A stretch of DNA of 64,000 bases from assembly GCF_003426735.1 (NCBI RefSeq), contig NZ_QVON01000009.1, positions 1 through 64,000 of the forward strand. The letters run 5' to 3'. Position numbers and translations under genes: made by a program. This document shows, piece after piece, positions 9,985-37,463 of the stretch (position 1 is its first letter; the number at the start of each line of letters is the position of its first letter). The notes beneath the pieces are model-generated. The model was not told where the DNA came from. It ran no database searches and saw only the letters and a program-made list of their open reading frames with translations. The stretch is from Arenibacter sp. P308M17 (GTDB lineage Bacteria > Bacteroidota > Bacteroidia > Flavobacteriales > Flavobacteriaceae).

Positions 9985-12216
9985 TTAGAAATTCACCGTC
10001 AGTTTACCTCTAAGATAAAATGGACTTCCTGGTGTGAAGTGAATTTCTTCAACCGAAGAGGTCTCGTTCTGTAATCTACTTTCCGTTGCAAATTGCGTTT
10101 CATTCCATTCATTATCAAATAGGTTTTCTATAATTACGCCCAAGGTCCAATTTTTAATACTGTAGTTGAGATTCATATCCGTTACGGTATACCCCTTGGC
10201 AACAATTGAATTATCTTCATTGGCCGGTCTATTTTTTATTAGCCTATAATTGATTCCGCCTGAAAAGTTGCTTAAATCCCTAAATGAAATACCTCCAGAA
10301 GAAGTTAAATCGGGCGAAAGGGGTATATAATCAGCTCCTTTGGGCTCTTCAGTGCTCCTGGCATAGGTGTAATTAACATCACCGTTAAAATATAGCCAAT
10401 CGGTCATTTGGTACCGCAGACCAAAATCAACACCAAAGCGTTTTGTTTTTCCACTTGGCTCAACAATGCCTGCATCTCCAACGTATACGAATTCCTGTTC
10501 CAAAAAGAGCGTCCAAAGCGAGGCATTTAACATCAACCTTTCCATTGGCATTATAATTGCCCCAAGGTCCGCGGAATAGGCGGCAGGAAGTATTTCTTTG
10601 CCATTGTTTGCAGTAACCACCCTTGTATCGTTGGAATGAAAACCAATGCCTGTTTTTCCGAACAATTGCAAACCTTGGGACGCTGCATATATAATGTTTA
10701 GTTTAGGTCCCAAAAAAAGTTTGCTCTCACTTTGGTTATCATAGGTTTCAGGTAAAAGGTCCTCATAATCGAACTTAAAATAATCCAATCTCAGGCCTGG
10801 ATTGATGGTCCATTTGTTTTTTTTGTAGGTTAGGTTAAGGAAGCCGTAACCATTAAATTCATCTATATTTCCATATGCCAGTCTCTCCAACAATTCCTGC
10901 CTGTTTTTTGTTCTGGATAGCTGCACTTCATTTACGTCATCATACCTGAAGCCAATGCCCGTTTCGTATTTTAGTTGCGAGTCATGGTCGCCAACGTGTA
11001 TGGAATGTTCATATTTGGTTTCTGAGCCTATTATGGTTCTATCTTCTTTTTGGCGTATTTGGTCGCCATTGGCCGGATCTTCCAGAAAAAAAGTGAAATT
11101 GGAAAAAAGTTCAAAATCATATTTGGATATATATGCTTTTGAAGTTATGTTGGAATGTTCGTTGATCAGTTTTTTATGATTGACCAAAAAGTTGGATCTA
11201 CTGGTATTGCCCCCTTCCGTATCATCAATTGCCCCAAATCTCCCTATGGTACCCTGATCAACAGCGCGTTGCGGTATTTGTCCGGAAGCATCCCATTTAC
11301 TTTGAAAATGTGACAATGTGAGGTTTAATACTTGGTTTTCCCTATTATTAAAGTTATAGCGGCCCATCATATTGATGCGATTGAAATTTTGGGGGGATTC
11401 AAATGCCCCGTCGGAAAGTACCAATTCTGAAGCGATGTACCCGTTACTATAATTACCTTCTTTAATTTTAAACATTCCCATGGTACGGATGGTATTGAAC
11501 ATGCCAGTCTCAAGCGACAATAAATTATCCTGGATTTTTTGTTTTGTTTTGATGTCTACATATCCGGCAGTATTGAAATTGCCCTGTTCGGCGTAATATG
11601 CGCCTTTACCAAAATCAATATTATCAATTGTTTCAGGGATTATAAAGTGCATATCCGCATAGCCCTGACCATGGGCATGCGATACCATATTGACCGGAAG
11701 GCCATCCACATGTATACTAATATCCGTTCCATGATCTATATCAAATCCCCTTAAAAATATTTGTTCGGCCTTGCCACCACCGGCATGCTGGCCAATAATG
11801 AGACCTGGTACTTTTCTTAATATTTCTTGCGATGATTTTACAGGGTCTGCCTTAACATCTACATTCACAAATTGACTCAAGGCATTGACTTTGGAAACCA
11901 ATATTACCTGATCCAAAGAAACAGCAGATTCTATAAGCTTAATATTAATGCTGCTATCCAGCTGATTCTCAGCTATTGTTATTTGATGGTTTTGATAACC
12001 CAGACTATAAAAATAGATAATGTCCCCAATCGATATGTCGTCCAGTTCAAAATATCCCGAAACATTGGAATAGGTATATCCACCAGTGGTCTTATTATAA
12101 ACGCCTACGCCATCTAGAGGTACATTATCCTCTGAGACTATAGTGCCATTTAGTTCATGCGCCCTTAAACCTTCAAATAGAATTAAGAACATAAAAAATA
12201 GTATATAATTTTTCAT
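9985..12216 (-). CDS. TonB-dependent outer-membrane receptor, metal- or metallophore-type
   Basis: 743 residues. A signal peptide (1-19, cut near LRAHELNG), a carboxypeptidase-regulatory-like domain (about 20-98), a plug (about 115-225) and a beta-barrel ending FYLRGKLTVNF. The plug reads SSQEILRKVPGLI, HAGGGKAEQIFLRGF and VNMVSHAHGQGYADMHF; the His residues at 144, 180, 182 and 190 are a possible metal-contact set. It is not a SusC-type receptor: it is shorter, has no STN domain and no SusD partner. It is the last gene of the minus-strand operon with the free carrier protein and the PP-loop NRPS, with 159 bases between it and the His-rich gene. It probably imports the metal complex of the peptide made by this locus. 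Confidence 0.85.
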   Translation of the reverse strand: MKNYILFFMFLILFEGLRAHELNGTIVSEDNVPLDGVGVYNKTTGGYTYSNVSGYFELDDISIGDIIYFYSLGYQNHQITIAENQLDSSINIKLIESAVSLDQVILVSKVNALSQFVNVDVKADPVKSSQEILRKVPGLIIGQHAGGGKAEQIFLRGFDIDHGTDISIHVDGLPVNMVSHAHGQGYADMHFIIPETIDNIDFGKGAYYAEQGNFNTAGYVDIKTKQKIQDNLLSLETGMFNTIRTMGMFKIKEGNYSNGYIASELVLSDGAFESPQNFNRINMMGRYNFNNRENQVLNLTLSHFQSKWDASGQIPQRAVDQGTIGRFGAIDDTEGGNTSRSNFLVNHKKLINEHSNITSKAYISKYDFELFSNFTFFLEDPANGDQIRQKEDRTIIGSETKYEHSIHVGDHDSQLKYETGIGFRYDDVNEVQLSRTKNRQELLERLAYGNIDEFNGYGFLNLTYKKNKWTINPGLRLDYFKFDYEDLLPETYDNQSESKLFLGPKLNIIYAASQGLQLFGKTGIGFHSNDTRVVTANNGKEILPAAYSADLGAIIMPMERLMLNASLWTLFLEQEFVYVGDAGIVEPSGKTKRFGVDFGLRYQMTDWLYFNGDVNYTYARSTEEPKGADYIPLSPDLTSSGGISFRDLSNFSGGINYRLIKNRPANEDNSIVAKGYTVTDMNLNYSIKNWTLGVIIENLFDNEWNETQFATESRLQNETSSVEEIHFTPGSPFYLRGKLTVNF

Positions 12217-12375: not shown

Positions 12376-12849
12376 CTATGAGCCTTGGCCAATGCCATTC
12401 AGGGGAGGTTTGAGCGATTTTGAGAAGAAGCCCTTTTGGGTGTTTTTTCTATTCCGACTATAATTATTCTCGGTATGATAAAAACGATTTTTAAATTTTA
12501 AATCCCAACTACCTATAAGGTGTTTGTCCAGTTCAATTGTAACCAAGAACGAATCATTGGATCGGTTTTTTTCAGGCGAAGTCTCGAAAAAGGAATTTAC
12601 CAAATCCAAAAATTCATGCTCGTGAAAATCTTGATAGTCAATATGTTGATGATTTTCATGGACCAAAGGATCTGCCGATAAGGTAGAATGGGGGATAATA
12701 AATTTTGGTAATTCCAATCCGTGCGAAATTTTATGAAAAACCACATTGATCTGTTGGCGCAATGGATTCAGTAAATAACAAATGCCCATTAAAATGGCCA
12801 CGTATTTAATTACAGACGGCTTTAAGCCTTTTTTGAACCCATTTTGCAT
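12376..12849 (-). CDS. Unrecognised His-rich protein with one membrane segment
   Basis: 157 residues. A basic N terminus precedes one hydrophobic segment (about residues 14-27, VIKYVAILMGICYLL). A histidine- and acid-rich stretch follows (HENHQHIDYQDFHEHEF, about residues 64-80), and the tail is basic. The ATG lies one base past the stop codon of the NRPS gene, so the two are very likely translationally coupled. The position between an NRPS and a TonB receptor, and the histidines, suggest a periplasm-facing metal-binding accessory protein; this is inference only. I do not recognise a family. Confidence 0.7.
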   Translation of the reverse strand: MQNGFKKGLKPSVIKYVAILMGICYLLNPLRQQINVVFHKISHGLELPKFIIPHSTLSADPLVHENHQHIDYQDFHEHEFLDLVNSFFETSPEKNRSNDSFLVTIELDKHLIGSWDLKFKNRFYHTENNYSRNRKNTQKGFFSKSLKPPLNGIGQGS

Positions 12850-12850: not shown

Positions 12851-15800
12851 TTATTCTTCCATAAGGGTTAACAAGGTTTCCTCAATATATTTGGCGTATT
12901 CCGAAATGGTGGGCAGTTCAAAGATTTTGTTCAATGGAAAAGTCATTTCAACTTCTTCATTTACACGGGCTGTAACCCGAATTGCAGCTAAGGAATGTCC
13001 TCCCAAGGCGATGAAATTATCATGTATTCCAATTTTATCCAAAAGAAGAACCTCCCTCCAAATTTTCTCCAATAGTATCTCTATTTCATTTTTTGGTTCT
13101 ACAAATGGGGTTTCCATTTGGAGTTGAACTATGTTGAGGCCGCGGAGCGCTTTCTTATCCACTTTTCCATTGCTGGTCAATGGCAGTGTTTCCAAATATT
13201 TAAATGTACCGGGCAACATATAGTGAGGAAGTCTTTTCGAGAGATGCTGGGTTAATTCTTGGTGGGAGATTTTAGTCTTTGCCGTATAATAACCAACAAG
13301 CTGTGGCCGCATTTTATCATTGTAATTGGATTCTACATAACCAATTTCTTTCATAATATGTTTTACTTCATTCTCATCGATATATTCATTGATTTCCTCC
13401 AAAGTTTCGGTTCTGGTCTTATGCCCCAAGCGTACATCCCAACTATAGGGAAAAGAATAGTTGCTATATCCCTTTTGTTTCTTATGGACATAGATGCCCA
13501 ATTGGTTGATCAAACAATTGGTAGATCTGCCGGTATCGGTTGGTCGTACCCATCCCACTTTTTCCTTAAGATATGCAAGCATTTCTTCCAGACGAACATC
13601 ATTATACCTATAAAAATCTACAAATTGGACCTTTTCAAATGTCTTCTCATCCTTAAACATGGACACATCCAATAGTTGGTTTACAGCATCGCTCTCTTGA
13701 TGGTACAATTTACGGGCCTCTAATATGGTTTGGTCTATTGTAGAGGTATCGATATCATCGTCCCAGAAAAGTTCTTCGGTCAATCGGGTCTCGAAAAATT
13801 GGCCCCTTGAAAGTCCTGTTACCACGAATGGAATTTTCTTGTCAAGCGCAACCTTTGTACTTAGCGTATAAATGGTTTTGAAACAACCATTACAGACATT
13901 TTGGTGCCTATCCAAGCTATCTACAAAAATTTTATTCATATGTTCCGTACTTCCATAAACATGGTCAACGCCAAGTTTCTGAACAATTTGGTCTATGTTC
14001 GTCTTGGCTTGCTCGGATATGTAACCATTATCCAAGGTAAATGCCAATACTTTAAGGCCCATGTTGATGAGTCTGGCCAGAACATAGGTGCTATCTTTCC
14101 CCCCGCTGAGTAGCGACAAACAATCATAAGTAGAATTTGATGCTTTTCGGGAAAGAAGTAATTGATGCAACTCCTCTTCCGTTTTAAAGTATTTATCCGT
14201 TTTTTCTTTATAGCCTTTAAACGCATTGCAAAGGTGACAAACCCCTTTCTCGTCGAAATCGGTTTTGGGGTAGTTACTGGGCAGGCCACATTCCGTACAG
14301 TTTAGTACTTCATTTTCCGCAACTCTTTCTTGTGCATCGATAAGAACGACCGAGGCATTGTCAATACTGCTATGCTCCAGTAAATTGGCTTCGATGTCCG
14401 CCAACTCTATTCTGAAACCATTTAATTTAACTTGTTCGTCATTACGACCAAGAAATTCCATTTCATCTTGGTTGTTCATTCTGACAAGATCTCCGGTCCG
14501 GTACATTATACTTCCGGGCCTGAAGGGATCATTTATGAATTTTTGTTTTGTAAGCTCTTTTAAATTGGCGTATCCTTCAGCAAGGCTATCCCCACTCAGG
14601 AAAAGTTCGCCAACAACACCTTTAGGCACCAAATTTTTATTATTATCCAGGATATAGGCATTCATGTTGGCAATAACCTTTCCTATGGGAACGGAAATAT
14701 CTCTATGATGTTCTGGATTAAATTTGCTAACGATACAGCCTACAGTGGCCTCTGTTGGCCCATATTCATTAAAAATAGTAACGTCCTCGCCCAAATGGTC
14801 ATAGATGTTTTTTGCTATTCCCACCTTAAGATCTTCCCCTCCCACGATCATGGTCTTGATTCTTGAACCCACCAGATTACGGACCTGCATCAATGTAATA
14901 TGTGCAGGAGTAACCTTTATTGAATTTACCTTATTTTCATCAAGGACCTGAATCAAAGAGATATCGGGACCCAACATTCCTTCTCGGTATACTACAACCT
15001 TGCCTCCATTAATAAGGGGCAAAAAGGTTGATGATATAGTAAGGTCAAAACCTATGGAAGTAAATAAAGGGAAAACTGAATTGGTACCTATATTATAGAA
15101 ACTCGAGGCCCATTGCAGGTAATTGTTCAAAGCCTTGTGAGAGACCATTACACCTTTGGGCATACCGGTAGATCCCGAAGTATATAGGTAATAGGCAATA
15201 CAGGACCTTTTTAAATTATGCCCCGTGGAAGTTGAAGGTTCGGAACTTATCTTTTCACTTATCTCTCTTAAGTCCATTGTTTTTGTATTCCCTGCAATGT
15301 TTTTCCTTAGCGCTTTTTCCGTTATAACCAAAACGCAGTCAGAGTTGGAGATCACAAATTCTATTCTACCTGCTGGTTGATCTGCGGGTATAGGAATGAA
15401 TGTTGCTCCAATTTTCATTAAGGCCAGGGCACTAATAATGTAATCTGGACTTCTATATAGGTGAAGAGCTACTTTTTCATTCTCCTTTATACCGTTTTTT
15501 ATCAGAAAATGTGCCAATTGATTGGCTCTATTGTTCAGGTCTAGATAGCTTATCAAATCTTCACCATTTTCTAGAGCAATTTTCTTTGGATTATTGTGAA
15601 CCGTTTTTTCGAAATGCTCTAAAAAAGTCCCTTTAAAATGACTTGTACCGCTCGTTTTCATATCCCCTAATAATTCCTCTATTTCATACTTGGTAATCAA
15701 AGGAGGTGCACCTATAGGTTGATCCAAATCTGTTAAGAGGCCATCCATGAGATTTAAAAAATGATGTGGTACCAATTCCGCCAGGCCCTCATCGAAAATG

Positions 15801-17002
15801 TCTTGGTTAAGATCGAATAGGATTTCCAATTCCCCTTTGGCATTGAAGTCTATAATATGGCATCTCAGCTGGTGTAAGGGATCACAATGTTTAGGGTGAA
15901 TCCATTCCACATTGGTAGGAAAGCCATTAAAACTAGAAAAAGAGGTATTGATATAATTTATGACGGCGCTGAAACTTCTACCCACCTCTGCCGAAGAAGA
16001 ACTAACTTGGGCATTTCTCAGAAAGTCGTTGGTCTCCAACTTCATTTTTTCTATGACCGTGGCAAAGGTGTCGTCATCACTCAACTCTAAGGATATTGGA
16101 AAAAGTTCTACAAATAATCCAGGGGTAAATTTAAAATCCCTTGATAGACGATTATGTATGGGAGAGCCTATCAAAATTTTAGATTGGCCACTGATTCTAT
16201 AGAGAAATATATGAATGAGGGAAGAAAATAGGGTGAAAAGTCCCATATCGGTGGACAATGAGCCAACCTTTGGATTTCGGGTCAATTCTTTAAGTTGTTG
16301 GGTACGGCGTTTCCCCAGAGCTATATGTACTCTCTTTGCCCGAGTAGTTTTTGCTTTTTGCCTTGATCCGTATAGTTGTGGTACCGTAGCGATACTTTTA
16401 ACTTTTTCTTTCCAATAATTGTTGTACTTATTATGATCGGGGCCCTTTCTTTTTTCGGCTTCGAACGTAATAAAATTACTATATGCCGGAGGAAAAGGTA
16501 TGGTGGCCACATTTTTGTCCTGGACGCCTTTATAAAGATCGGCCATTAAATTAAAAATAAGTACCGCTGTAGTTGCGTCGGTAATTAGGTGATGTAGGTT
16601 TAAGTACCAAATATAATTTTCCTCAGCTACTTTTAGAATTGCAGTGTCAAACAACGGTTGGGAAAAATCAAAATTTATTTCACTTCTTTTCTCAAGCCAT
16701 TCTTTAACCGAAAGTCCGTTCGTATTCCGGCTAAAATCCAGTTTTTTTAATTGGAATGAAAATTCGGCAAGTACTTTCTGGGTGACCGTTCCGTTTTCCT
16801 CATAAAAAATGGTCCGTAATATCTCGGTGCGATCAATTAATGCTTGCAAAGCAAGTTCAAAAACCTCTTCTGAAATATTTCCGTTTATTTCGAACGCATA
16901 CGGAACATTATATAATGGAACATTGGGGTTTATTTTTTGACCCATCCAAATAAGTTCCTGGCTTTGCGTTAATGGTTGGCTATAGAGGTATTTATTATGC
17001 AT
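12851..17002 (-). CDS. Nonribosomal peptide synthetase C-A-T with a PP-loop ATP-pyrophosphatase domain inserted in the A domain
   Basis: 1383 residues. Condensation domain about 5-435 (active site HHLITDA at 137-143). Adenylation domain about 455-1290, with YTSGSTGMPKG (607-617), FDLTISS (652-658), NEYGPTE (745-751), YRTGDL (834-839), QVKLNGFRIEL (857-867), LPHYMLP (1258-1264) and NGKVDKKAL (1278-1286). Carrier domain about 1305-1380 (LGGHSL, Ser1337). Between motifs A8 and A9, residues about 898-1222 form a separate enzyme: zinc-ribbon cysteines 902, 905, 922, 925, the PP-loop SGGKDS (966-971), CNGC (1037-1040) and another Cys at 1163. Aligning by eye with GrsA gives pocket residues D-L-S-K-I-G-E-V-G, close to the known asparagine code (DLTKLGEVG). 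It follows the free carrier protein gene by 11 bases. Confidence 0.9.
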   Translation of the reverse strand: MHNKYLYSQPLTQSQELIWMGQKINPNVPLYNVPYAFEINGNISEEVFELALQALIDRTEILRTIFYEENGTVTQKVLAEFSFQLKKLDFSRNTNGLSVKEWLEKRSEINFDFSQPLFDTAILKVAEENYIWYLNLHHLITDATTAVLIFNLMADLYKGVQDKNVATIPFPPAYSNFITFEAEKRKGPDHNKYNNYWKEKVKSIATVPQLYGSRQKAKTTRAKRVHIALGKRRTQQLKELTRNPKVGSLSTDMGLFTLFSSLIHIFLYRISGQSKILIGSPIHNRLSRDFKFTPGLFVELFPISLELSDDDTFATVIEKMKLETNDFLRNAQVSSSSAEVGRSFSAVINYINTSFSSFNGFPTNVEWIHPKHCDPLHQLRCHIIDFNAKGELEILFDLNQDIFDEGLAELVPHHFLNLMDGLLTDLDQPIGAPPLITKYEIEELLGDMKTSGTSHFKGTFLEHFEKTVHNNPKKIALENGEDLISYLDLNNRANQLAHFLIKNGIKENEKVALHLYRSPDYIISALALMKIGATFIPIPADQPAGRIEFVISNSDCVLVITEKALRKNIAGNTKTMDLREISEKISSEPSTSTGHNLKRSCIAYYLYTSGSTGMPKGVMVSHKALNNYLQWASSFYNIGTNSVFPLFTSIGFDLTISSTFLPLINGGKVVVYREGMLGPDISLIQVLDENKVNSIKVTPAHITLMQVRNLVGSRIKTMIVGGEDLKVGIAKNIYDHLGEDVTIFNEYGPTEATVGCIVSKFNPEHHRDISVPIGKVIANMNAYILDNNKNLVPKGVVGELFLSGDSLAEGYANLKELTKQKFINDPFRPGSIMYRTGDLVRMNNQDEMEFLGRNDEQVKLNGFRIELADIEANLLEHSSIDNASVVLIDAQERVAENEVLNCTECGLPSNYPKTDFDEKGVCHLCNAFKGYKEKTDKYFKTEEELHQLLLSRKASNSTYDCLSLLSGGKDSTYVLARLINMGLKVLAFTLDNGYISEQAKTNIDQIVQKLGVDHVYGSTEHMNKIFVDSLDRHQNVCNGCFKTIYTLSTKVALDKKIPFVVTGLSRGQFFETRLTEELFWDDDIDTSTIDQTILEARKLYHQESDAVNQLLDVSMFKDEKTFEKVQFVDFYRYNDVRLEEMLAYLKEKVGWVRPTDTGRSTNCLINQLGIYVHKKQKGYSNYSFPYSWDVRLGHKTRTETLEEINEYIDENEVKHIMKEIGYVESNYNDKMRPQLVGYYTAKTKISHQELTQHLSKRLPHYMLPGTFKYLETLPLTSNGKVDKKALRGLNIVQLQMETPFVEPKNEIEILLEKIWREVLLLDKIGIHDNFIALGGHSLAAIRVTARVNEEVEMTFPLNKIFELPTISEYAKYIEETLLTLMEE

Positions 17003-17580: not shown

Positions 17581-18855
17581 ATGAGAAATCTTACATTTTT
17601 TATAGCTTCAGTTTTCGTTTTTTTATTGCCATTAATTGGATTCGCCCATCAACCAAATCATAGTTTTATCTATTTGAGGGTATATGAAAACCAAAATGTA
17701 GAGGGTAGGTTTGAAATGGATGTCAAAGATTTAAACAAATATTTCGGACTGCAACTTAACGAAAGCCCCAAAGCGGAAGACCTTCGGCCTTATTTGAATC
17801 AGATGAAGGATTATTTGCTCAAAAACACGAGGTTTTCATCTGGGGATGATGAATATCAAATTGTTTTTACAGATGAAATAAGCATGATGTCCGTAGTTAA
17901 AACTTCATTTGCGCGTTTTCATTTTTATCTGGAGAATTCACAGGAACTTCCTGAGGAGATGGAGGTCACCTATACGGTTCTTTTTGATGAGAATCCGGAT
18001 CATATTAATATGTTGGCTTTCGAATACAACTGGAAAGCTGGTTTGATCAATAATGAATCAATAATAGCTCTCGATTTTACTTTGGGAAACGAAACCAAAA
18101 TTTTATCCATGACCGATTCTTCCATTTGGAACGGGTTTGTGGCGATGGTTAAACAGGGGGTATGGCATATATGGATAGGTTTGGACCATATCCTTTTTTT
18201 ATTGGCACTTATTCTTCCATCAGTTGTTCGGCGTAAAAAGAAATTGGTAGAGGTTGAACCCGGGAAGACCGAATCCAAATATTATATATGGGGATGGGAA
18301 CCGGTACTGAAATTTAAACCAGCCTTTATCTACATCATAAAAGTGATAACTTTTTTCACCATAGCACATACCATAACTTTAACATTGGCTTCCTTGGAAA
18401 TCGTTAGTTTGCCTTCCCGAGTTGTAGAGTCCATTATTGCCTTATCTATTGGTCTTGCGGCCTATCATAATATCACCCCTATATTTAAGGGCAAAGATTG
18501 GATAATTGCTTTTGTATTTGGTCTGTTCCACGGTTTTGGATTTGCCAGTGTGCTTGGTGACCTGGGAATAAAAGGAGAGTTTCTAACTTTAACCTTGTTT
18601 GGTTTTAATTTAGGTGTGGAAATAGGACAGGTCGCTATTATTGCGCTTATATTTCCAATTCTGTATTTCATACGTAAAATTAAGTTCTACCCTCATTTTC
18701 TTGTTTATCTATCCGTACTGCTTATCATTATTTCGTTATACTGGTTCGTGGAACGGGCCTTTGATTATGACATGGCATTGGATGAAAAGATTAGAAGATT
18801 TGGGGGAGACATACTTAGGGCGCTTGGACTCAGGGAGGACTATTATAAATCTTAA
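17581..18855 (+). CDS. HupE/UreJ-family membrane protein (putative metal permease)
   Basis: 424 residues. A signal peptide (1-22, ending FAHQ), an extracytoplasmic domain of about 160 residues, then a membrane part with about seven helices. The family signatures are GVWHIWIGLDHILF (193-206), IAHTITL (His263) and FGLFHGFGFAS (313-323); HupE/UreJ proteins are linked to nickel or cobalt uptake, and the histidines lie in helices. This long form with an N-terminal secreted domain is the HupE/UreJ_2 type. It is the first gene of the plus-strand operon, 27 bases before the C-A-T-E NRPS. With the TonB receptor on the other strand it would give an outer-membrane plus inner-membrane import route. The transported metal is not known. 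Confidence 0.85.
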   Translation: MRNLTFFIASVFVFLLPLIGFAHQPNHSFIYLRVYENQNVEGRFEMDVKDLNKYFGLQLNESPKAEDLRPYLNQMKDYLLKNTRFSSGDDEYQIVFTDEISMMSVVKTSFARFHFYLENSQELPEEMEVTYTVLFDENPDHINMLAFEYNWKAGLINNESIIALDFTLGNETKILSMTDSSIWNGFVAMVKQGVWHIWIGLDHILFLLALILPSVVRRKKKLVEVEPGKTESKYYIWGWEPVLKFKPAFIYIIKVITFFTIAHTITLTLASLEIVSLPSRVVESIIALSIGLAAYHNITPIFKGKDWIIAFVFGLFHGFGFASVLGDLGIKGEFLTLTLFGFNLGVEIGQVAIIALIFPILYFIRKIKFYPHFLVYLSVLLIIISLYWFVERAFDYDMALDEKIRRFGGDILRALGLREDYYKS

Positions 18856-18882: not shown

Positions 18883-21800
18883 ATGTCAATTTTAAGTAGA
18901 TGGAAAAACAAGGATAAAGGGGAATTGACCAAAGACACAATAGGAAAAGCGCCTAATGGGGCAACTATTCCTCTTACGGGTGGTCAACAAAGACTTTTTT
19001 TTCTAGAATCGTTATATCCCAAAAATCCTGTTTACAATTCTTCTGAAATTTATAGGTTCAGGGGCAAACTCGTAAAAGAAGATTTGCTGAAAAGTCTACA
19101 GGCCATATTTGACCTGAACGATGTTTTTAGGTGTTCTTTCCATATTAGGGAAGGAATTCCTTTTCAAAAGGTATGGGATACGGTTACCCTGGATTTGGTG
19201 CATTATGATATAAGCGATGTTATGGCCGCAGAGAAAGATACGCGACTAGCGGAAATTATGTCCGGCGATGCGCTGAAACCTTTCGATCTACAAAGACCGC
19301 CCCTGATACGGACTACCCTTATTAAGTTAGATTTTAACACACATATTTTATTCATTACCATGCACCATATTATTGTGGATAAATGGTCTATGGGTATATT
19401 TCGTGCACAACTTGCCAAATATTACATAAATCCGCCTACAACCTATGAAATTAAGGATATTCGATCAAGAATTCAGTTTGCGGATTACGCCTATTGGGAA
19501 CAGGGTAGAGGTGTAGATAGGAATCAATTGGAGTATTGGAAAAATAAACTTTCTGGAAATATTCCCAAGCTTGAGCTACCGACCGACTACCCTCATCCCG
19601 CGCATCCTTCCTTTAAGGGAGATTCCAATGTTCAGATTTTATCAAAATCCTTGTCCAGCAAAATTCTTGAACTATCCAAAGAAGTGGAATGTACTCCTTT
19701 TATTTTATTGTTGTCCGCTTACTATGTTTTATTGTTTCGATACAGTCGTCAAAATGATATAGTTATTGGTTCTCCCATTTCTATCCGTAATTCAAAAGTA
19801 CTACAAAATGTTATCGGTTTTTTTGATGAAACGATTGTGTTGAGAACAGATTTTTTATCTTCTATTTCATTTATTGAATTGGTAAAGCGCGTTCGCCAAA
19901 CCGTTTATGAGGCTTTTAGCAATAAAGACATTGCATTTGATGTCTTGGTCAAAGAACTGAAGCCTGATAGGGTAGCAGGAATTAACCCTTTCTTGCGAAC
20001 AATGTTCATTTATCATGATGTTCCTCCAATGCCATTTTTTGGTCAAGATTTGGATCTGTCATATGATTTCTATAATACCGGGGTCTCGAAATTTGATTTA
20101 ACACTCTACGTTGCAAATGAAAAGGGACAGCTTTTGTCAGAATTTGAATATTCAACGGATTTGTTCGATAAAGCTTCCATTGAACAATTTCAGGAACATT
20201 TTAGGTTATTGCTAATAGGGGTTACGGACAATCCTGGGATAGAGATTGCCGCCATTCCCATGATGACGGTAAAGGAGCAGGATATTCTTTTACCAAAAAA
20301 GGCAACTTACCTTGGGCCGTATGATTCTTATAAAGGCATTCATGAAATTATACGCCAAACCGCTTTGGATAGGAAGGATGCTGTAGCGCTGATTTATGGG
20401 CAGGAACAAATGACATATGGAGAACTTGATGATTTATCGGATACCATAGCCCAACATATACTCTCTTTTACGAAAAATACCAATAACAGTATTGTTGGAT
20501 TATGTTTGGAACGATCTACAATTTTAATTGCCGGTTTAATTGGTATTTTGAAGGCTGGATGTGCTTATTTGCCCATAGACCCGGATTACCCGTTAAACCG
20601 AATTTCTTTTATGTTGGAGGATTCCAAAGTTCAATTCGTGCTTACAGATGGGGATTTGTTGTCCAAACTTGAATCCTATAAGGGTACACAACTTCTTATA
20701 AGAAATATCATTGATTCAGGGGTGTCCACTCCCATTGCCTTTCCAGATGTAAACGGCAATGATTTGGCGTATGTTATTTATACATCCGGTAGTTCTGGTA
20801 AGCCTAAAGGTGTACCCATTACCCATTCCAATATCATAAATTCTACGGAAGGACGCCTTTTGTTTTATCCGGAAAACCCATCAGCATTTTTATTAATGTC
20901 CTCAGTGGCTTTTGATAGCTCCAAGGCTGGAATTTTTTGGACACTATGTACCGGGGGTACTCTGGTAATATCCGAGAAGAGATTGGAACAGGATGTAGCC
21001 AAAATAAATGACATTATTTACTCCAATAACATCAGTCACACACTGATGTTGCCTTCCCTTTATAAAGTTATGTTGGATTACAGTGATTTGTCCAAGTTGG
21101 AATCCCTGACTACCGTAATGGTTGCCGGGGAGGCTTGTTCCAATGTCTTATGCCAAAACCACTTTAACAAGTTGCCCAATACAGGTCTCTATAATGAATA
21201 TGGGCCTACTGAAGCATCGGTTTGGTGCATGGCCTATAAGATAACGAATGAAAATTTAGGGAACATGATCCCCATAGGAAGTGCAGTCGCAAATGCCGAA
21301 ATATACCTTCTTGACCCCAATCTAAATTTGGTTCCTTTTGGAGCGGTCGGGGAAATTTATATAGGCGGCCCTGGTCTGGCCAATACTTATCTGAACAGAC
21401 CAGACTTAACGAATATGGCGTATATAAATAACCCATTTTCTGATACTATTGGAAGTAAATTATACAAAACCGGGGATTTGGGAAGGTATAGGAAAGATGG
21501 TGAGATGCTATTCTTGGGAAGGACCGACCAGCAGGTTAAGATTCGTGGATTCCGGGTGGAATTAAGTGAAATTGAAGAGGTAATACTAGAGGACCCCTTG
21601 GTTGACCAGGTTTTGGTTATAGTGGCCGAATCGGAAATACAGGAAAGTTCGGGCCCTGCTGAAAATTCCAATTATTTAATTGCATATGTGGAATATAAAG
21701 GAATTCTTGATCAAGAAAAGTTCAAAGAACAATTGACAAAAAGTTTACCCAATTACATGGTTCCTTCCAAAATAATCGCAATTGACAATTTTCCTCTTTT

Positions 21801-23532
21801 ACCAAATGGAAAAATTGATAAAAATAGTTTGCCTAAACCCAAAAAAGATGGGAACAAGGCGTTGTCAGCCCATTTTCAAGGTCCTAGAAATGAATTGGAA
21901 ATTGCGCTGGCAGAGATTTGGCAAGAAGTATTGCATAGGGCACCAATTGGTGTGTACGACAATTTCTTTGAAATTGGCGGGGATTCCATATTGAGTATTC
22001 AAATTGTGGCCAAGGCAAGAAGCAAAAACATATTGTTGAGGCCCAATCAAATATTTGAGAACCAAACCATAGCAGATCTTGCGCTCTTTGCCAATTTTTC
22101 TACACTGAATGTAGCTGTAGCGCAAAGTATAGAAGGAGATGTTTGTTTGACCCCCATTCAACATTGGTTTTTAAGTACGCACCACAATGCACCACATTAT
22201 TGGAATCAAATAGTCCGTTTGTTGAATGTGGGAAAACCGGATAGGGCTATCATTCAATCGGTAATTGAAGAATTGGTTTGTTATCACGATGCACTCCGGC
22301 TTAAGTTTGTAAAGACAGATTCTTGGAAAGCCGTAATAGATCCCAAGGATGGAAAAAAAGTTTTTTATTTGGAGGATGTAAGCGCTATTGGGGATAGCGT
22401 TGAACAGAATAAACAAATCCAAGAATTTTTATATACTATTCAAGAGTCTACCAAATTGTCCGATGGACAACTTTTTAAATGCATTTATTTCAATTGTGGT
22501 GAAACTCAGGGGGATCAAGTGTATCTAATAGCCCACCATTTGGTTATAGATGTAGTTTCATGGAATATTCTATTTAATGATATTAATGTTGCCATCAACC
22601 AGATAATTAACAATAAACCAATATTATTTAGTGGTAAGACAGCATCGGTTAAGCAATGGGGAGCATATCTAAAAGAACTTTCCAAATCCCAACACCTTTT
22701 GGAAGAACTTTCATTTTGGAAGTCCCAGAAGAACGATATACAAATGTTTCCCTCAGATTTTGTTTGTGAAAAGAATAGTTACGAAGAGAGTACAATAGAA
22801 ATATATCAAGCATCGCTCGGAGCGGAGGACACTCTTAAACTGCTGCAAGATGCCAATTGGGTCTATAACACAAAGATTGAAGAATTGTTGGTAACCGCAC
22901 TTCTTTCCGTTCTACATAAATGGAGCCTCTTGGATAGGATTTGTCTTGGAATGGAAAAACACGGTCGGAGTGCTGAAATTTTGGATTTGGACGTATCGGG
23001 CACTATTGGTTGGTTTACCTCGTATTTTCCGGTTGCATTGAATGTAATGAAGCATGGGGATTTGGGGAATCAGATTAAATTCGTAAAAGAGCAACTTAGA
23101 AAGGTTCCGAATAACGGTATTGGTTATGGAATACTAAAATATCTTAGCCAAGAACAAATTGATACTGAGGAACTTGATCAAAGACCTCAGGTGATATTCA
23201 ACTATCTTGGCAATCGAATGGTTAACGGAAACTCTACGGATATTGGGTTTGATTTGTTGTGGAAAGGAAGTCGGGATCCCAAAAGTGAACGAAGTTATGG
23301 TTTGGAGATCAACTCATATATCCTAAATGGGCAATTGTACTCAAACTGGAGTTACTGTAGGGATTTATACAAGGCAACGACCATTGAAAGATTGGTTTCC
23401 GAATTTAATACCGTTCTGCATCAAATAATTTTGCACTGTAAAGACAAGGAAATTCAGGAGTATACGCCTTCGGATTTTCCTGAATCCGGTATGGGTCAAG
23501 ACGATTTGGACATCCTTTTGGGGAATTTATAA
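18883..23532 (+). CDS. Nonribosomal peptide synthetase, C-A-T-E module
   Basis: 1549 residues. Condensation about 28-460 (HHIIVDKWS, 161-169). Adenylation about 485-990, with YTSGSSGKPKG (633-643), FDSSKAGI (677-684), NEYGPTE (771-777), YKTGDL (861-866), QVKIRGFRVEL (884-894) and NGKIDKNSLP (975-984). Carrier about 1003-1075 (GGDSI, Ser1035). Epimerisation about 1085-1525, recognised by HHLVIDVVSW (1218-1227), KHGRS (1359-1363), GWFTSYFPV (1376-1384) and FNYLGNR (1439-1445). The module should add one residue and turn it to the D form. Pocket residues aligned by eye are D-S-A-M-M-A-E-V-W, for which I have no confident substrate. It is 27 bases after the permease gene and 6 bases before the next NRPS gene. 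Confidence 0.93.
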   Translation: MSILSRWKNKDKGELTKDTIGKAPNGATIPLTGGQQRLFFLESLYPKNPVYNSSEIYRFRGKLVKEDLLKSLQAIFDLNDVFRCSFHIREGIPFQKVWDTVTLDLVHYDISDVMAAEKDTRLAEIMSGDALKPFDLQRPPLIRTTLIKLDFNTHILFITMHHIIVDKWSMGIFRAQLAKYYINPPTTYEIKDIRSRIQFADYAYWEQGRGVDRNQLEYWKNKLSGNIPKLELPTDYPHPAHPSFKGDSNVQILSKSLSSKILELSKEVECTPFILLLSAYYVLLFRYSRQNDIVIGSPISIRNSKVLQNVIGFFDETIVLRTDFLSSISFIELVKRVRQTVYEAFSNKDIAFDVLVKELKPDRVAGINPFLRTMFIYHDVPPMPFFGQDLDLSYDFYNTGVSKFDLTLYVANEKGQLLSEFEYSTDLFDKASIEQFQEHFRLLLIGVTDNPGIEIAAIPMMTVKEQDILLPKKATYLGPYDSYKGIHEIIRQTALDRKDAVALIYGQEQMTYGELDDLSDTIAQHILSFTKNTNNSIVGLCLERSTILIAGLIGILKAGCAYLPIDPDYPLNRISFMLEDSKVQFVLTDGDLLSKLESYKGTQLLIRNIIDSGVSTPIAFPDVNGNDLAYVIYTSGSSGKPKGVPITHSNIINSTEGRLLFYPENPSAFLLMSSVAFDSSKAGIFWTLCTGGTLVISEKRLEQDVAKINDIIYSNNISHTLMLPSLYKVMLDYSDLSKLESLTTVMVAGEACSNVLCQNHFNKLPNTGLYNEYGPTEASVWCMAYKITNENLGNMIPIGSAVANAEIYLLDPNLNLVPFGAVGEIYIGGPGLANTYLNRPDLTNMAYINNPFSDTIGSKLYKTGDLGRYRKDGEMLFLGRTDQQVKIRGFRVELSEIEEVILEDPLVDQVLVIVAESEIQESSGPAENSNYLIAYVEYKGILDQEKFKEQLTKSLPNYMVPSKIIAIDNFPLLPNGKIDKNSLPKPKKDGNKALSAHFQGPRNELEIALAEIWQEVLHRAPIGVYDNFFEIGGDSILSIQIVAKARSKNILLRPNQIFENQTIADLALFANFSTLNVAVAQSIEGDVCLTPIQHWFLSTHHNAPHYWNQIVRLLNVGKPDRAIIQSVIEELVCYHDALRLKFVKTDSWKAVIDPKDGKKVFYLEDVSAIGDSVEQNKQIQEFLYTIQESTKLSDGQLFKCIYFNCGETQGDQVYLIAHHLVIDVVSWNILFNDINVAINQIINNKPILFSGKTASVKQWGAYLKELSKSQHLLEELSFWKSQKNDIQMFPSDFVCEKNSYEESTIEIYQASLGAEDTLKLLQDANWVYNTKIEELLVTALLSVLHKWSLLDRICLGMEKHGRSAEILDLDVSGTIGWFTSYFPVALNVMKHGDLGNQIKFVKEQLRKVPNNGIGYGILKYLSQEQIDTEELDQRPQVIFNYLGNRMVNGNSTDIGFDLLWKGSRDPKSERSYGLEINSYILNGQLYSNWSYCRDLYKATTIERLVSEFNTVLHQIILHCKDKEIQEYTPSDFPESGMGQDDLDILLGNL

Positions 23533-23538: not shown

Positions 23539-25944
23539 ATGGATAAAGAAAAAAAAACAAATATTGAAGCTATTTTACCCCTGACGGAATTACAGCAAGG
23601 AATGCTCGTCCATCATCTTTTCAATCCATTGCACGATGAAGGTTTTTTACATGTAGGCTTTAGATTGAAAGGGTCATTAAATACCCATTTTTTCAAGAAG
23701 GCATGGGAGCTTTCCATTAAAAGACATCAGGTTTTGAGATCATCGGTGCATTGGGAAAATATCCGTACGCCAGTACAGTTGATACGAGGAACAAGTGAAC
23801 CCAACTGGACCATTTTGGATTGGACTCACCTCAGTTTAGCTGAGCAAGACATAAGGCTTGAGGCTTTAAAGTCGGACCAAAAAGGATCGGGCTTGGATTT
23901 CAAACAAAATCCATTGCTTAATTTTTATCTTATCAAAATGGGCCAAGCGGAGTTTTTTTTTCTTTGGCCATGCCATCACCTTCTATTGGATGGTTGGTCT
24001 AGCAGTATCATTGTAAAGGACCTATGCGCCTTTTATGAAGGATTATGTAAAGGCACCGATAGGGAATTGGAAACACTCCCGTCTCTTAAAACCTATTACG
24101 CCTGGCTCAAAAACAAAGAACGGAATGGAGCAGCATCCTTTTGGTCCAATTATTTTGCCGGCTATTCCAAATCCCATCTTTTTATTAGGGCCAATGCCCC
24201 TATTAGGTCAGATGGGAGCATCATGGAGTGCATATCTTTATCGGTAGCTGAATCAAAAAAAATCACAGAAAAGGCAAGAGCTAATTTGGTAAGTGTCAAT
24301 ACAATGATTCAAGGGGCATGGAGTTTACTTTTGAGTGCCTATTTCAATGCGGACAATGTCGTATTTGGAACTACGGTGTCCGGTCGTTCAAACGATTTCC
24401 CCAATATGGACCTTCTTGCCGGAATGTTTATGAATATCTTACCTGTAAGTAGTATAATTGTTAAGCAGTGTTCCTTAATAGAATGGTTGCAATCGTTTCA
24501 AAAACGACAGCTGGTATGCCTGCAATATGAGGAAACTGCCTTCACGGAAATTTTGTCCCAAGTTAGTAATACCAAAGGGGGTATAAGGTTCGACAGCCTG
24601 TTGGTTTTCGAAAACTTTCCATGGAAGGACCTCAAATGTGGTGATGTTGAAATTAATGACTATGGAAGCGGAGTTACTTCCAATTATCCAATAACCTTAA
24701 TTATTGTGCCCGGTACACAAATGGAATTTAAGTTTATATTCAATGCCGATGAATTAAATGAGGGAACTAAAAAATGGATTATGGATAATTGGGAGCGTGT
24801 TTTAAAACTCATATTATCCGATGGGGTAACGCAGGTCGGTGAAGTTTTGGATGGGGTTGGGGTTTTTCTTCACGATGATTCCGAGCAAAAAAAAAGTAAG
24901 GCTCTTAAAATTGAAGCTTTGTGCGTTGATTATATTGCCCCAAGAAATGAGATTGAAGAACAGCTGGTCAATATATGGAAAAATCTTTTGGGATTGGACA
25001 AAGTTGGGGTAACGGACAATTATTTTGAACTTGGTGGTAAATCCATAATGGCCGTTCAGATGTTTGTATTGATCGAGAGCAAATTGGGAGCAAAATTGCC
25101 CCTGACAACCCTTCTTTTTAGCCCTACAATAGAACAAATAGCGGAGTTGCTTGCCAAAAATATTAAATCGGAATTACCGAATAGAAAGTTTATTGTTCCA
25201 CTTAGGACAACCGGAAGTGAAAAACCTCTTTTTTGTGTGCATGGAGGTGAGGGCCATGTATTATTTTATAAACTGCTCCCTAAATATTTGAAAGAAAATA
25301 GGCCTGTTTATCTGCTGCAACCAAGAGGAATTGATGGAGAGGGCACAATGCATGCTAGTATAGAGGCAATGAGCAAGGATTATCTGTCCGAAATGTTGGA
25401 GATAATAGACGATGGTACGTACAATATTATGTTTTTTTGCTATAGTGCCCTTGCTATTGAAATGGCTTTGCTTCTTCAAGGAATGGGCAAACGGGCAAAC
25501 CTTATAATTGTGGACAGTACGGCACAGTCTCCAGCCAAAATAGACCAACCAAGTTTAAGGCCAAGACTTAAAAATTACTTTTTGAAAATACGGTATGCTC
25601 CAATAATGACTTTGAAAAGTTCCATAGTATACAGATATAGGCAATTATTGGAACCTACCTATATTACTTTTACCCAGGATAAGTCTACTATTGCCCTTAC
25701 TAAAATCCGGAAACATTTGGATTATGTGCATGAACAGTATATATGGAAAAAAATTGATAGTCCAATTACCCTTGTTTTAACTGAAAAAGAACCCATAGGA
25801 AGCAGGGAAGAAAAAATACGATTATGGGAATACTGGACCAATTCGAAGGTGAAAGTATATTACAATACAGGAAACCATTTAAATCTTTTTGAAGAACCTC
25901 ATGTACGTTTATTGGCTAAAACAGTTGATGAAGCATGTGCGTGA
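23539..25944 (+). CDS. Terminal nonribosomal peptide synthetase C-T-TE without an adenylation domain
   Basis: 801 residues. Condensation about 10-440 (HHLLLDGWS, 146-154; LLAGMFMN, 292-299), expected to accept a D-residue donor from the epimerising module. Carrier about 465-540 (LGGKSI, Ser502). Thioesterase about 550-800, of the type I alpha/beta-hydrolase kind (FCVHGGEGH near 565, IIVDST with Asp659, GNHLNLFEEPHV with His780). There is no adenylation domain, so this carrier must be loaded in trans. The nucleophile elbow reads CYSAL (634-638) instead of the usual G-x-S-x-G: both glycines are replaced but the serine is kept. It releases the product, either by hydrolysis or cyclisation. The gene starts 6 bases after the preceding NRPS and ends 33 bases before the phosphopantetheinyl transferase. 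Confidence 0.9.
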   Translation: MDKEKKTNIEAILPLTELQQGMLVHHLFNPLHDEGFLHVGFRLKGSLNTHFFKKAWELSIKRHQVLRSSVHWENIRTPVQLIRGTSEPNWTILDWTHLSLAEQDIRLEALKSDQKGSGLDFKQNPLLNFYLIKMGQAEFFFLWPCHHLLLDGWSSSIIVKDLCAFYEGLCKGTDRELETLPSLKTYYAWLKNKERNGAASFWSNYFAGYSKSHLFIRANAPIRSDGSIMECISLSVAESKKITEKARANLVSVNTMIQGAWSLLLSAYFNADNVVFGTTVSGRSNDFPNMDLLAGMFMNILPVSSIIVKQCSLIEWLQSFQKRQLVCLQYEETAFTEILSQVSNTKGGIRFDSLLVFENFPWKDLKCGDVEINDYGSGVTSNYPITLIIVPGTQMEFKFIFNADELNEGTKKWIMDNWERVLKLILSDGVTQVGEVLDGVGVFLHDDSEQKKSKALKIEALCVDYIAPRNEIEEQLVNIWKNLLGLDKVGVTDNYFELGGKSIMAVQMFVLIESKLGAKLPLTTLLFSPTIEQIAELLAKNIKSELPNRKFIVPLRTTGSEKPLFCVHGGEGHVLFYKLLPKYLKENRPVYLLQPRGIDGEGTMHASIEAMSKDYLSEMLEIIDDGTYNIMFFCYSALAIEMALLLQGMGKRANLIIVDSTAQSPAKIDQPSLRPRLKNYFLKIRYAPIMTLKSSIVYRYRQLLEPTYITFTQDKSTIALTKIRKHLDYVHEQYIWKKIDSPITLVLTEKEPIGSREEKIRLWEYWTNSKVKVYYNTGNHLNLFEEPHVRLLAKTVDEACA

Positions 25945-25977: not shown

Positions 25978-26715
25978 ATGGGTGCTGAGCTGGCTAATTA
26001 TTACAATTTGGAAAAAGAAACCCTTCATTTATGGTTTGTAGATGTAGGGGCCAAGTTGGCTAACCGTTATTATAACCTTCTATGTGAAAATGAAAAAATT
26101 AGGGCAGGCAAGTATAGGTTTGCCCATGATCAATACATTTTTATAACGGCCAGGGCGGTTTTGAGAATATTATCTGGACATTATTTACAAAAAGATCCTA
26201 CACAAATTAGGTTTAAGTATGGAGCGTATGGCAAACCTTACTTTAAGGAAGAAAATGGTTTGCTTTTCAACATCTCCCATTCGGGTGGCAAGGCTATAAT
26301 AGGTTTTGGTAAGGTTATGGAAATGGGGGTGGATATTGAAAAGATCAAGGACGATTTTGATGTAGTCGATATTGCGGGTAAGTTTTTTTCACAAAGTGAA
26401 ATTAAATCGCTAAAAGAAATTGCCAAGGAAACGCAGAACAGGGCATTTTTTCGCTGTTGGACCAGAAAGGAATCGTTTATAAAGGCTAAGGGCGACGGTC
26501 TTTCCCTGCCCTTGGATTCCTTTTCTGTTACGCTTGATGACGATAGAGAGGCTAGACTTATTGAAACAAAATGGAATCCCTGTGAAAAGGACAGTTGGAG
26601 AATATTTTCTTTTGTACCATATGATAATTACATAGGTGCAGTTTCGGTTCGGGGAAACGTTCAAAATATTAAATATCGGAATTGGAACGAGGTTAGTGAA
26701 CGGCATAATTTTTAG
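25978..26715 (+). CDS. Sfp-type 4'-phosphopantetheinyl transferase
   Basis: 245 residues, the usual length of the Sfp/Gsp group. It transfers phosphopantetheine from coenzyme A to the serine of carrier domains. Motifs: GKP (85-87), FNISHS (97-102), GVDIE with the magnesium ligands (117-121) and WTRKESFIKA (161-170). As the last gene of the plus-strand operon it most likely activates the three NRPS carrier domains and the free carrier protein of this locus. The next gene is convergent, 18 bases away, with no clear terminator between them. Confidence 0.92.
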   Translation: MGAELANYYNLEKETLHLWFVDVGAKLANRYYNLLCENEKIRAGKYRFAHDQYIFITARAVLRILSGHYLQKDPTQIRFKYGAYGKPYFKEENGLLFNISHSGGKAIIGFGKVMEMGVDIEKIKDDFDVVDIAGKFFSQSEIKSLKEIAKETQNRAFFRCWTRKESFIKAKGDGLSLPLDSFSVTLDDDREARLIETKWNPCEKDSWRIFSFVPYDNYIGAVSVRGNVQNIKYRNWNEVSERHNF

Positions 26716-32701: not shown

Positions 32702-32732
32702 GATTTATCTTTTTTTGATGTACCGGGCAATT

Positions 32733-33197
32733 TTATACGATTTGTGAATTAGCAGCAGTTTTGATCGCTTTTTTGATGCGTGTATATGTGCCACAGCGAC
32801 AAATATTTCCGTTCATAGCTCCTTCGATTTCCTCATCGGTGGGATTTGGGTTCTTTTTAAGAAATGCAGTTGCGTTCATGATCTGTCCGGCCTGACAATA
32901 TCCACATTGATATACATCTTCTTCCAACCATGCTTTTTGAACTGGATGGTCGCCGTTTTCGGAAAGGCCCTCGATGGTGGTAATATTTTGTTCGCCAACA
33001 GCAGAAATGGGCAATTGGCAGGAACGTACGGCGTTATCGCCCAAATGTATGGTACAGGCCCCACATTGTGAGATACCGCAACCGTATTTGGTACCCACCA
33101 ATTTCAGATGGTCCCGCAATACCCATAACATGGGTGTATTGGGATCTACATCTATTTGCTGGGTTTTTCCGTTGATTTTAAGTTTGAAGTTTGCCAT
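32733..33197 (-). CDS. [2Fe-2S] subunit of the molybdenum hydroxylase, isoquinoline 1-oxidoreductase alpha type (IorA-like)
   Basis: 154 residues starting [16 protein letters not shown]. The N-terminal plant-type ferredoxin fold has CGISQCGAC and a later Cys in RSC. The C-terminal helical domain has CGYCQAG and NICRCGTY. Together these bind two [2Fe-2S] clusters that pass electrons from the molybdenum subunit encoded just downstream. The frame remains open to 33296, but the extra residues are not family-like, so the start at 33197 is preferred. It has no signal of its own and is probably carried out with the Tat-exported partner. Confidence 0.9.
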
Positions 33198-34146
33198 GAT
33201 TTTAGTGTAAGGGAGTGATAGTGTTGAATTTACAAAATTATTGGATGAATAATAGGGGTGAAGCAATTTTTTTATCAAGAACAGGTTAAAGAACATGTTA
33301 AATTACATAACTTATATTCTAAGGCATAATGATTCTTAATTAAATGGTGGGGATTAATTGGGGCCGAGATACCTAGGCTGCAGAGCACGAATCCAAAGAT
33401 TCTCCAGCCCTTGATTCTTTTCCGGACAATATAGCTTATAGACACTAATGATGATAATTATCAACTTTAATAATCAGTCATTAAATTGGATGTCTGCTCT
33501 CTGCTTCAACACCATATAAAGAGCCATTTAATTGGTAATAGTTTATTTTTAAAGAAAGTATCTACAAATTTTTATGTCTCGCTAACAATGTTGAAAATTG
33601 TTAAAATTTTATTGATAGCAAAAAAAATTATTGTAGGTGTAGTTTTGTTGAAAATTATCACCTATATTTGTTTTGTATAAGTTTATTGTTAAGTTGAACA
33701 TATCTACGATAAGGAAGGTTAATTATAAAAATTTTGCCCAGTAGAGTGTTTTATAGTCCTTTTCAGGATGTAAGCGAGAAGATAACTTATTGAAATTGAC
33801 AAATAAAATTGTATATAGGATATTCGTTATGGGATTAACGCCACACTATTTTTTCGGTTCTTATCTCCATACCATTTAATTGTTCAATTGATTTTTAAAT
33901 GGTATTTGTTCCATAATTAACGTACTACACCCGTCATGGTAATCCGGCCATGTTTTTTGTTCCAAACCTATATTGTTAAAAATCACGCTTTTTAATTTGA
34001 AGCGTACAATGGCCCAATGGTCTGGATTCTCTATATCATTAAGGCTTTAAATCGGGTACAACAAAAGACACATGGGTATCTTGATATCTATATATGGTCT
34101 TATTTCCTGTAAGTATTGTATATCAATTAATTAATATTTATCTAAA
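33198..34146. other. AT-rich intergenic region without a supported gene
   Basis: About 950 bases. A 64-codon frame at 33486-33680 has a plausible hydrophobic end but no recognisable family, and I do not call it. The last 100 bases before 34147 contain TTGATATC and GTATATCAA, an inverted pair that may belong to the promoter of the next gene. There are no repeats of the families seen elsewhere. Confidence 0.5.
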
Positions 34147-36076: not shown

Positions 36077-36141
36077 TGTGTGATTTGGTTTTTTTTGGTT
36101 CGAAATTATGGTAAATATGAAAAAAAAATGTGAAAAAAATA

Positions 36142-36165
36142 AGGGTTTCCCAAAATGGCTTCGTA
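36142..36165 (+). promoter_or_regulatory. Candidate ECF-type promoter of the first FecR gene
   Basis: AGGGT (36142-36146), 15 bases, then CGTA (36162-36165), 21 bases before the FecR start. The same boxes with the same 15-base spacing precede the FecR genes at 47697 and 63119. Confidence 0.6.
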
Positions 36166-36186
36166 TAAAAGTGAAATGCTTAGTCA

Positions 36187-37353: not shown

Positions 37354-37405
37354 ATAACAGTGCATGACAAAAACCAATAGGAGCATAAAAAATGCGTTGT
37401 TGCTA

Positions 37406-37463
37406 ACAAAGTGAAGCAATCTGCCCAATGGGCGACAGATCGCTTCGTACCTCGCGATGACGA
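37406..37463. repeat. Intergenic inverted-repeat element between FecR and SusC genes
   Basis: Contains GAAGCAATCTGCCCAATGGG, then GCGACAGATCGCTTCGTACC and TCGCGATGACG. AGCAATCTG and CAGATCGCT form an imperfect stem. Elements of the type GCAATGACG-GAAGCAATC are widespread bacterial intergenic repeats. Confidence 0.55.

Follow-up and report, generated by a model that had tools for sequence, protein, structure and literature searches.

A PP-loop enzyme embedded in an asparagine-type adenylation domain of Arenibacter: a candidate carrier-dependent thioamide synthetase

What would a complete PP-loop enzyme do in the middle of an adenylation domain? The question is raised by a 64,000-nucleotide stretch of DNA from Arenibacter sp. 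P308M17 (contig NZ_QVON01000009.1, positions 1–64,000; hereafter the window), in which the reverse-strand gene 12851–17002, referred to here as NRPS1, encodes a nonribosomal peptide synthetase (NRPS) of 1383 residues whose adenylation (A) domain contains a PP-loop insert of ~325 residues. An earlier note made from the sequence had described such an enzyme, lying between motifs A8 and A9 of a condensation–adenylation–carrier (C–A–T) synthetase. The architecture is confirmed as real and conserved; as to its function, we consider it somewhat likelier than otherwise that the insert serves as an embedded thioamide synthetase, dependent on the carrier, for asparagine or an adjacent amide.

Layout and family of the embedded domain

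NRPS1 is a single uninterrupted frame with no internal stop, and its C–A–T layout is apparent from Pfam and NCBIfam scans. On the reverse strand, like all the NRPS1 features given below, the C domain covers residues 9–444 (15671–16978; PF00668, 8.4e-64, a value for the whole protein), the A core up to A8 covers residues 464–890 (14333–15613), with the AMP-binding match at 464–811 and the AA-adenyl-dom match at 485–885, and the carrier (T) domain covers residues 1311–1373 (12884–13072; PF00550, PP-binding). The A8 motif, GRNDEQVKLNGFRIELADIE (residues 852–871; 14390–14449), ends at residue 871, shortly before the insert (residues 898–1222; 13337–14311), and A9 (LPHYMLP) and A10 (NGKVDK) come after it, which places the insert at the A8–A9 junction. 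The C-terminal A9–A10 subdomain (residues 1235–1280; 13163–13300) scores 24.4 bits against PF13193 (AMP-binding_C), just under the cut-off of 24.5, and its NGK is invariant in alignment A3. The A domain is otherwise complete, A10 included, and A10 is present in all 22 distinct insert-bearing NRPSs (39 rows picked by the zinc ribbon and SGGKDS, the window included). The boundaries that the earlier note had given for the insert are exact, running from 14311 down to 13337, and the positions it listed for the cysteines and the PP-loop are all correct.

The insert opens with a zinc-ribbon tetracysteine, CxxC...GxCxxC (Cys902, Cys905, Cys922 and Cys925; 14228–14299), in which the residue two before the third cysteine is glycine in the window and variable in the other homologues. 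There follow the PP-loop SGGKDS (residues 966–971; 14090–14107), a CNGC (13883–13894) whose Cys1037 and Cys1040 are the first two predicted ligands of an iron–sulfur (Fe–S) cluster, and STNCLIN (13505–13525), whose Cys1163 is the predicted third. Neither SGGKDS nor any of the seven cysteines varies among the 19 insert homologues aligned; L016, nearly the same as L004, was omitted from that alignment and is present in a 16-row alignment with the same outcome. CxGC and STNC are found in each of the 22 distinct synthetases. The insert has both motifs of the N-acetyl sugar amidotransferase family TIGR03573, CxxC...[GN]xCxxC and SGGxDS (19/19), the tetracysteine matching the zinc site described for these enzymes (PMC10607449).

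The profile search that the earlier note had suggested matched PP-loop families only, the best being TIGR03573 (residues 901–1219 aligned), against which three inserts score 138.5 (window), 107.1 and 80.1 bits, all under the curated cut-off of 203.2. Matches to QueC, LarE, ThiI and TtuA models are weaker: NCBIfam LarE gives 23.5 bits against a cut-off of 150, and NCBIfam TtuA 15.3 against 450. A plain tRNA thiolase fused by accident is rejected on that TtuA score. The resemblance to TtuA and TtcA put forward in the earlier note stands for the order of zinc ribbon, PP-loop and CxxC...C, and fails for the nearest family, which is TIGR03573, below its cut-off. Structure prediction (best model, mean pLDDT 69.8 and pTM 0.71; the other four, mean pLDDT 36–48) suggests, as a moderate model, a PP-loop core fold similar to TtuA, TtcA and NcsA, in keeping with the fold that the note had assigned. 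Foldseek TM-scores are low, 0.27–0.46 by query length among the 50 matches listed, and insert residues 259–325, with the STNC stretch, are poorly modelled, for which reason we claim no distances between cysteines.

Distribution and conservation

A scan of species genomes revealed 15 further loci encoding the insert (59–89% identity), in all of which insert and A domain share one frame, L013 being truncated by a contig end; the listed homologues have no stop within the frame. Fourteen of these loci are in records named for Flavobacteriaceae genera, or named as Flavobacteriaceae, Flavobacteriales or Bacteroidetes, and the remaining one is a Saprospiraceae metagenome-assembled genome. In the family of the window, presumably Flavobacteriaceae, the insert occurs in 28 of 397 genomes and 21 of 237 genera, the 28 including the window's own genome and several from the 15-locus scan. 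A phylum-wide sample of 395 genomes gave 18 matches at 1e-20, of which two are strong (the window's own genome and G203, from another order) and 16 weak, in frames of ~370–680 residues; in the order of G203, the insert is present in 2 of 128 genomes.

Plasmids extend this range, with 15 records matching the insert. A Roseovarius plasmid encodes a 52% identical insert within a 2682-residue synthetase, C–A(insert)–T–C–A–T–TE (TE, thioesterase), and a Pseudohalocynthiibacter plasmid has one of 52% identity in an unannotated frame cut short by the end of the record; both are Rhodobacterales. A 40% identical homologue on a Streptomyces sp. NBC_01216 plasmid (L049:13932–16112) lies outside any A domain: the PP-loop domain forms the N-terminal part of a 726-residue protein with a condensation-type domain, next to genes for an A–T protein, an asparagine synthetase (asnB) and an amino acid racemase. 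The patchy presence of the insert-bearing module in two phyla and on plasmids makes horizontal transfer probable.

That the gene results from fusion or assembly error, a doubt raised in the earlier note, has a negligible probability. Nothing was found in support of it, and the same in-frame fusion recurs in the 15 other contigs, in the 28 of 397 family genomes (own genome included), in another order and on the two Rhodobacterales plasmids; since independent genomes share the fusion, assembly error is rejected. The search for other synthetases with the same insert, likewise suggested there, thus yielded 15 loci as well as plasmids.

Identities to the window were compared segment by segment for 14 of the 15 loci, L016 being left out. 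The insert is 75–89% identical in 13 of the 14, and in 12 of those 13 the A core reaches 48–55% and the C domain 33–48%; the corresponding values for insert, A core and C domain are 89%, 82% and 70% in L002, a close relative, and 59%, 33% and 27% in the distant L015. Because the identity of the insert is far above that of the A core and C domain, the insert is, judging by these alignments, under much stronger constraint than the A domain that houses it. The short T domain comes close to the insert in conservation (63–92% in 13 loci, 40% in L015) and is ahead of it in L002, L003 and L008, three of the 14 loci, so that the insert is not put forward as the best-conserved part of the whole protein.

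Several side observations concern the plasmid-borne forms. The Streptomyces L049 protein is a second NRPS-integrated form of the PP-loop domain. A PP-loop protein on a Streptomyces sp. NBC_00470 plasmid (L050:7710–8858; 25% identity), with CWPC and STNCMMN and without the full zinc ribbon, is encoded close to acyl carrier protein and ketosynthase genes and is possibly a further carrier-linked relative. Of the other 11 plasmid records, 10 carry the annotation N-acetyl sugar amidotransferase and one that of a 7-cyano-7-deazaguanine synthase. Finally, the plasmids that carry the Rhodobacterales cluster (L047/L048) come from two genera, yet eight flanking genes have the same protein accessions in both; TniQ, TniB and transposase genes lie near the cluster in L047, and together these features suggest a recent transfer.

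Substrate pocket and chemistry

All 22 distinct A domains have a pocket with Lys, GGE and NEYGPTExxVG parts, and the FDLT part is present in all 22 as well (two scans taken together). Read at the standard positions, this pocket is DL(S/T)K(I/V)GEVGK, near the asparagine code DLTKLGEVGK; by these residues, the insert-bearing A domains look as if they activate asparagine. It is mainly because the insert and the Asn-type pocket co-occur across phyla that we place the chemistry of the insert on asparagine or its neighbouring amide. The pocket of the partner A domain, DSAL(M/I)AEVW, is common to the window and Roseovarius. Amidation of aspartate to asparagine in cis was considered and is disfavoured, the pocket being Asn-like, in that its A5 position is occupied by Glu and not by His. 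The earlier note had offered a thioamide, an amide or a nitrile as outcome: we prefer the thioamide, regard amide formation as unlikely because of the Asn-like pocket, and keep the nitrile as a rival.

The scheme that we infer runs as follows. NRPS1 would be a bifunctional elongation module, its A domain activating asparagine and loading the T domain. The insert would be an adenine nucleotide alpha-hydrolase-type PP-loop enzyme in which the zinc ribbon has a structural role and three cysteines hold a [4Fe-4S] cluster; using ATP, it would adenylate an amide oxygen of the T-bound residue, and a sulfide on the free iron of the cluster would then displace AMP to leave a thioamide. The likeliest target is the side-chain carboxamide of asparagine, which would give thio-asparagine, and the next likeliest the amide bond that the upstream C domain has just formed. 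Two neighbouring synthetases, NRPS2 and NRPS3, would then extend and release the peptide. To sulfur as the transferred atom we assign a probability of a little over one half.

CtaC, from the closthioamide pathway, is a PP-loop, Fe–S and carrier-dependent thioamide synthetase, the first of its kind to be reconstituted (PMC6772006, 2019). Judged by the residues named there (D77, S78, C154, C157 and C284 of CtaC against D73, S74, C140, C143 and C266 of the insert), the two enzymes are alike in the PP-loop and in the order and, roughly, the spacing of the predicted Fe–S cysteines. CtaC also works on a carrier-bound peptide in a thiotemplated pathway, as the insert is predicted to do, but CtaC is free-standing and belongs to an NRPS-independent pathway of an anaerobe, whereas the window enzyme sits within an A domain of Asn type. 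The CxxC...C triad of the insert is that of [4Fe-4S] sulfur inserters: three such cysteines bind the cluster required for sulfur transfer in the [4Fe-4S] LarE of T. maritima (PMC9283937), and three cysteines likewise hold the cluster of TtuA (PMC7138817). TtuA, TtcA, NcsA and LarE resemble the insert in the core fold and in having, after the PP-loop, a CxxC and then a further Cys, but they act on tRNA or nucleotide cofactors and have low sequence similarity to it. The N-acetyl sugar amidotransferases (WbuX/WbpG; LpNASAT, 8WEX), on the other hand, share with the insert the zinc tetracysteine, the PP-loop and a similar length and fold; they differ in that 8WEX lacks CxxC...C, its alignment to a profile built from three triad-bearing WbuX-type proteins showing no Cys at the three positions, and in that the members described in PMC10607449 have sugars of lipopolysaccharide synthesis as substrates and not carrier-bound amino acids.

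Several points weigh against sulfur transfer. Among the weak relatives (17 read of 19 loci given, two being without a row), CxxC follows the PP-loop in four and is absent from 13. Ten of the 17 were scored, and nine exceed the TIGR03573 cut-off; three of these nine have CxxC and a later Cys (L019, L020 and L024) and six have no CxxC (L021, L028, L030, L033, L044 and L045), L025 having CxxC at a score below the cut-off. The triad and the amidotransferase annotation therefore overlap, and the triad cysteines favour sulfur without proving it. Moreover, part of the window insert matches Pfam QueC above the gathering score. The hosts of insert-bearing synthetases are mostly aerobes. CtaC is oxygen-sensitive and its relatives occur mostly in anaerobes (PMC6772006), and the conversion of an amide to a nitrile is known in an NRPS pathway for ArtA/NitB (PMC13060819).

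The idea that an Fe–S triad alone proves sulfur chemistry was dropped in view of the amidotransferase-scoring L019, L020 and L024. Two types can be told apart among the TIGR03573 proteins above the cut-off: one has SGGKDS together with CWHC and a later Cys, the other has SGG[VIR]DS and no CxxC. The former might bind an Fe–S cluster too, which raises the question of whether some sugar 'amidotransferases' work via sulfur.

Among the alternatives, a nitrile synthetase, in which the insert would adenylate the T-bound asparagine carboxamide and eliminate AMP to give beta-cyanoalanine, is unlikely, though it has models in QueC/ToyM and ArtA/NitB. Both pairs are PP-loop-type amide activators with a weak or partial sequence match to the insert. 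CxGC and STNC are retained in all 22 synthetases, although a nitrile maker presumably needs no Fe–S triad, and we know of none in QueC/ToyM or ArtA/NitB. The match to Pfam QueC (PF06508, gathering score 22) is partial, the window insert reaching 28.4 bits over profile positions 2–75 of 210 only, and it falls under the gathering score in the Roseovarius homologue P0005 (21.8) and in Streptomyces L049 (21.0); on the NCBIfam QueC equivalog, which has a cut-off of 150.3, three inserts score 24.7, 22.7 and 26.0 bits. ArtA, which makes its nitrile within an NRPS pathway, is argininosuccinate-synthetase-like by a title cited in PMC13060819, and it matches the insert profile weakly (E 0.02).

Quite unlikely, too, is an amidine-forming amidotransferase akin to WbpG/WbuX, which would replace an amide oxygen of the carrier-bound chain with nitrogen from ammonia or by ring closure with the asparagine side chain. 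TIGR03573 is the best family of the insert, but the score falls far short of the 203.2-bit cut-off; the solved amidotransferase is without the triad that the insert keeps, and a Pfam scan of 25 window proteins revealed no partner of the glutaminase or ammonia-channel kind. Very improbable, finally, is a degenerate or purely structural insert: we know of no activity for any member, which would suit this view, but the insert is much better conserved than the surrounding C and A domains, its active-site motifs are all invariant, and the Streptomyces homologue retains them outside an A domain. For a thioamide synthetase, as for any of these catalytic alternatives, whichever atom is installed, an amide-activating PP-loop enzyme has been placed within an A domain.

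The insert is thus a new variant in the known class of interrupted A domains. TioS AMA4 (PDB 5wmm, the top fold match), KtzH and TioN likewise hold a catalytic domain within a complete A domain, at the A8–A9 site in TioS and KtzH; the inserts named in the accessible text of a 2024 review are methyltransferases (M), oxidases (Ox, MOx) and ketoreductases (KR), none of them PP-loop, and the word thioamide is absent from that text. The earlier note had not recognised a PP-loop insert as described, and indeed no description of an amide-activating PP-loop enzyme in an A domain was found in open-licence PMC papers, among the matches listed. In the same collection, no paper was found for interrupted adenylation domains together with PP-loop; the PP-loop passages found with nonribosomal peptide synthetases concern, as far as they extend, other enzymes only; and on thioamides, nonribosomal peptides, adenylation domains and AANH, only the CtaC paper looked relevant, by its listing. 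If the insert does make a thioamide, the repertoire of A-domain inserts would widen beyond methylation, oxidation and ketoreduction, and the domain would offer a portable module for engineering. To our knowledge, thio-asparagine has not been seen in nonribosomal peptides. Thioamidated nonribosomal peptides are called exceedingly rare (PMC6772006); an embedded thioamide synthetase in two phyla would then be a genetic handle to find them.

Neighbouring genes and possible product

Neighbours were counted over the 15 loci, of which L013 spans only 5 kb and others are cut by locus ends. Directly downstream of NRPS1, a small His-rich membrane-type protein (12376–12849, reverse strand), with no Pfam match, has a match in 13 of 15 loci and contains 8–16 His in the 11 orthologues read; it lies between the synthetase and a TonB-dependent receptor (9985–12216, reverse strand; Pfam; match in 14 of 15) in all 12 loci where both matched. 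The six PDB matches of the receptor are all BtuB over a plug-sized stretch and are uninformative on the ligand. Divergent from NRPS1, a HupE/UreJ-family membrane protein (17581–18855, forward strand; PF13795; match in 14 of 15) has counterparts beside the synthetases of Roseovarius and Pseudohalocynthiibacter, the Roseovarius copy being 35% identical to that of the window. This protein, which has a weak DUF6702-like N-terminal match below the cut-off, is a neighbour common to the Bacteroidota and Rhodobacterales clusters.

The forward strand continues with NRPS2 (18883–23532; match in 12 of 15 loci), in which Pfam recognises C–A–T and a second, epimerization-like C domain with HHxxxDxxSW and GWFTxxxPV, NRPS3 (23539–25944; C–T–TE, Pfam) and a 4'-phosphopantetheinyl transferase (25978–26715; PF01648). 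The second Condensation match of NRPS2 (residues ~1085–1540) carries HHLVIDVVSW and GTIGWFTSYFPV, motifs of the epimerization-domain type; because of these, NRPS2 is probably C–A–T–E (E, epimerization), with its residue D-configured.

Judging by the TonB receptor and the His-rich and HupE/UreJ proteins encoded beside the synthetase genes, the peptide may be a metal-binding compound (metallophore). In a fuller version, which we hold to be possible but doubtful, an Asn-A-domain thioamide synthetase would let aerobic marine bacteria make carrier-bound thio-asparagine as part of a peptide that binds soft metals and is imported via the linked TonB receptor. Were it true, the module would have spread between phyla and, with its condensation-fused Streptomyces sister, would be one member of a broader class of PP-loop tailoring domains built into NRPSs.

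Some related clusters differ in their additional genes. In L007, L015 and L047 a PigA/RedW-type prolyl-carrier dehydrogenase (401, 394 and 383 bits, below the cut-off of 500) and a free A domain are encoded beside the synthetase; L046 has the same Pfam families as that dehydrogenase and a free A domain, L014 has, by size, open reading frames (ORFs) like both, and L005 and L006 have one A-domain-sized ORF only. An ornithine cyclodeaminase-family gene is present in L007, L014, L015 and L046. These genes suggest a pyrrole starter in some related clusters. No such dehydrogenase, free A domain or cyclodeaminase gene occurs near NRPS1 in the window, the best PigA-type match in its own genome (272 bits) being on another contig; as the PigA-type model also matches 9 of 14 control genomes, we do not claim a pyrrole starter for this cluster.

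Elsewhere in the window, 30503–33296 encodes an ordinary pair of molybdopterin oxidase large subunit and 2Fe-2S subunit, and 35477–45627 resembles a locus for the use of sulfated polysaccharides, containing an ECF sigma factor, FecR, two sulfatases and a TonB receptor/SusD pair.
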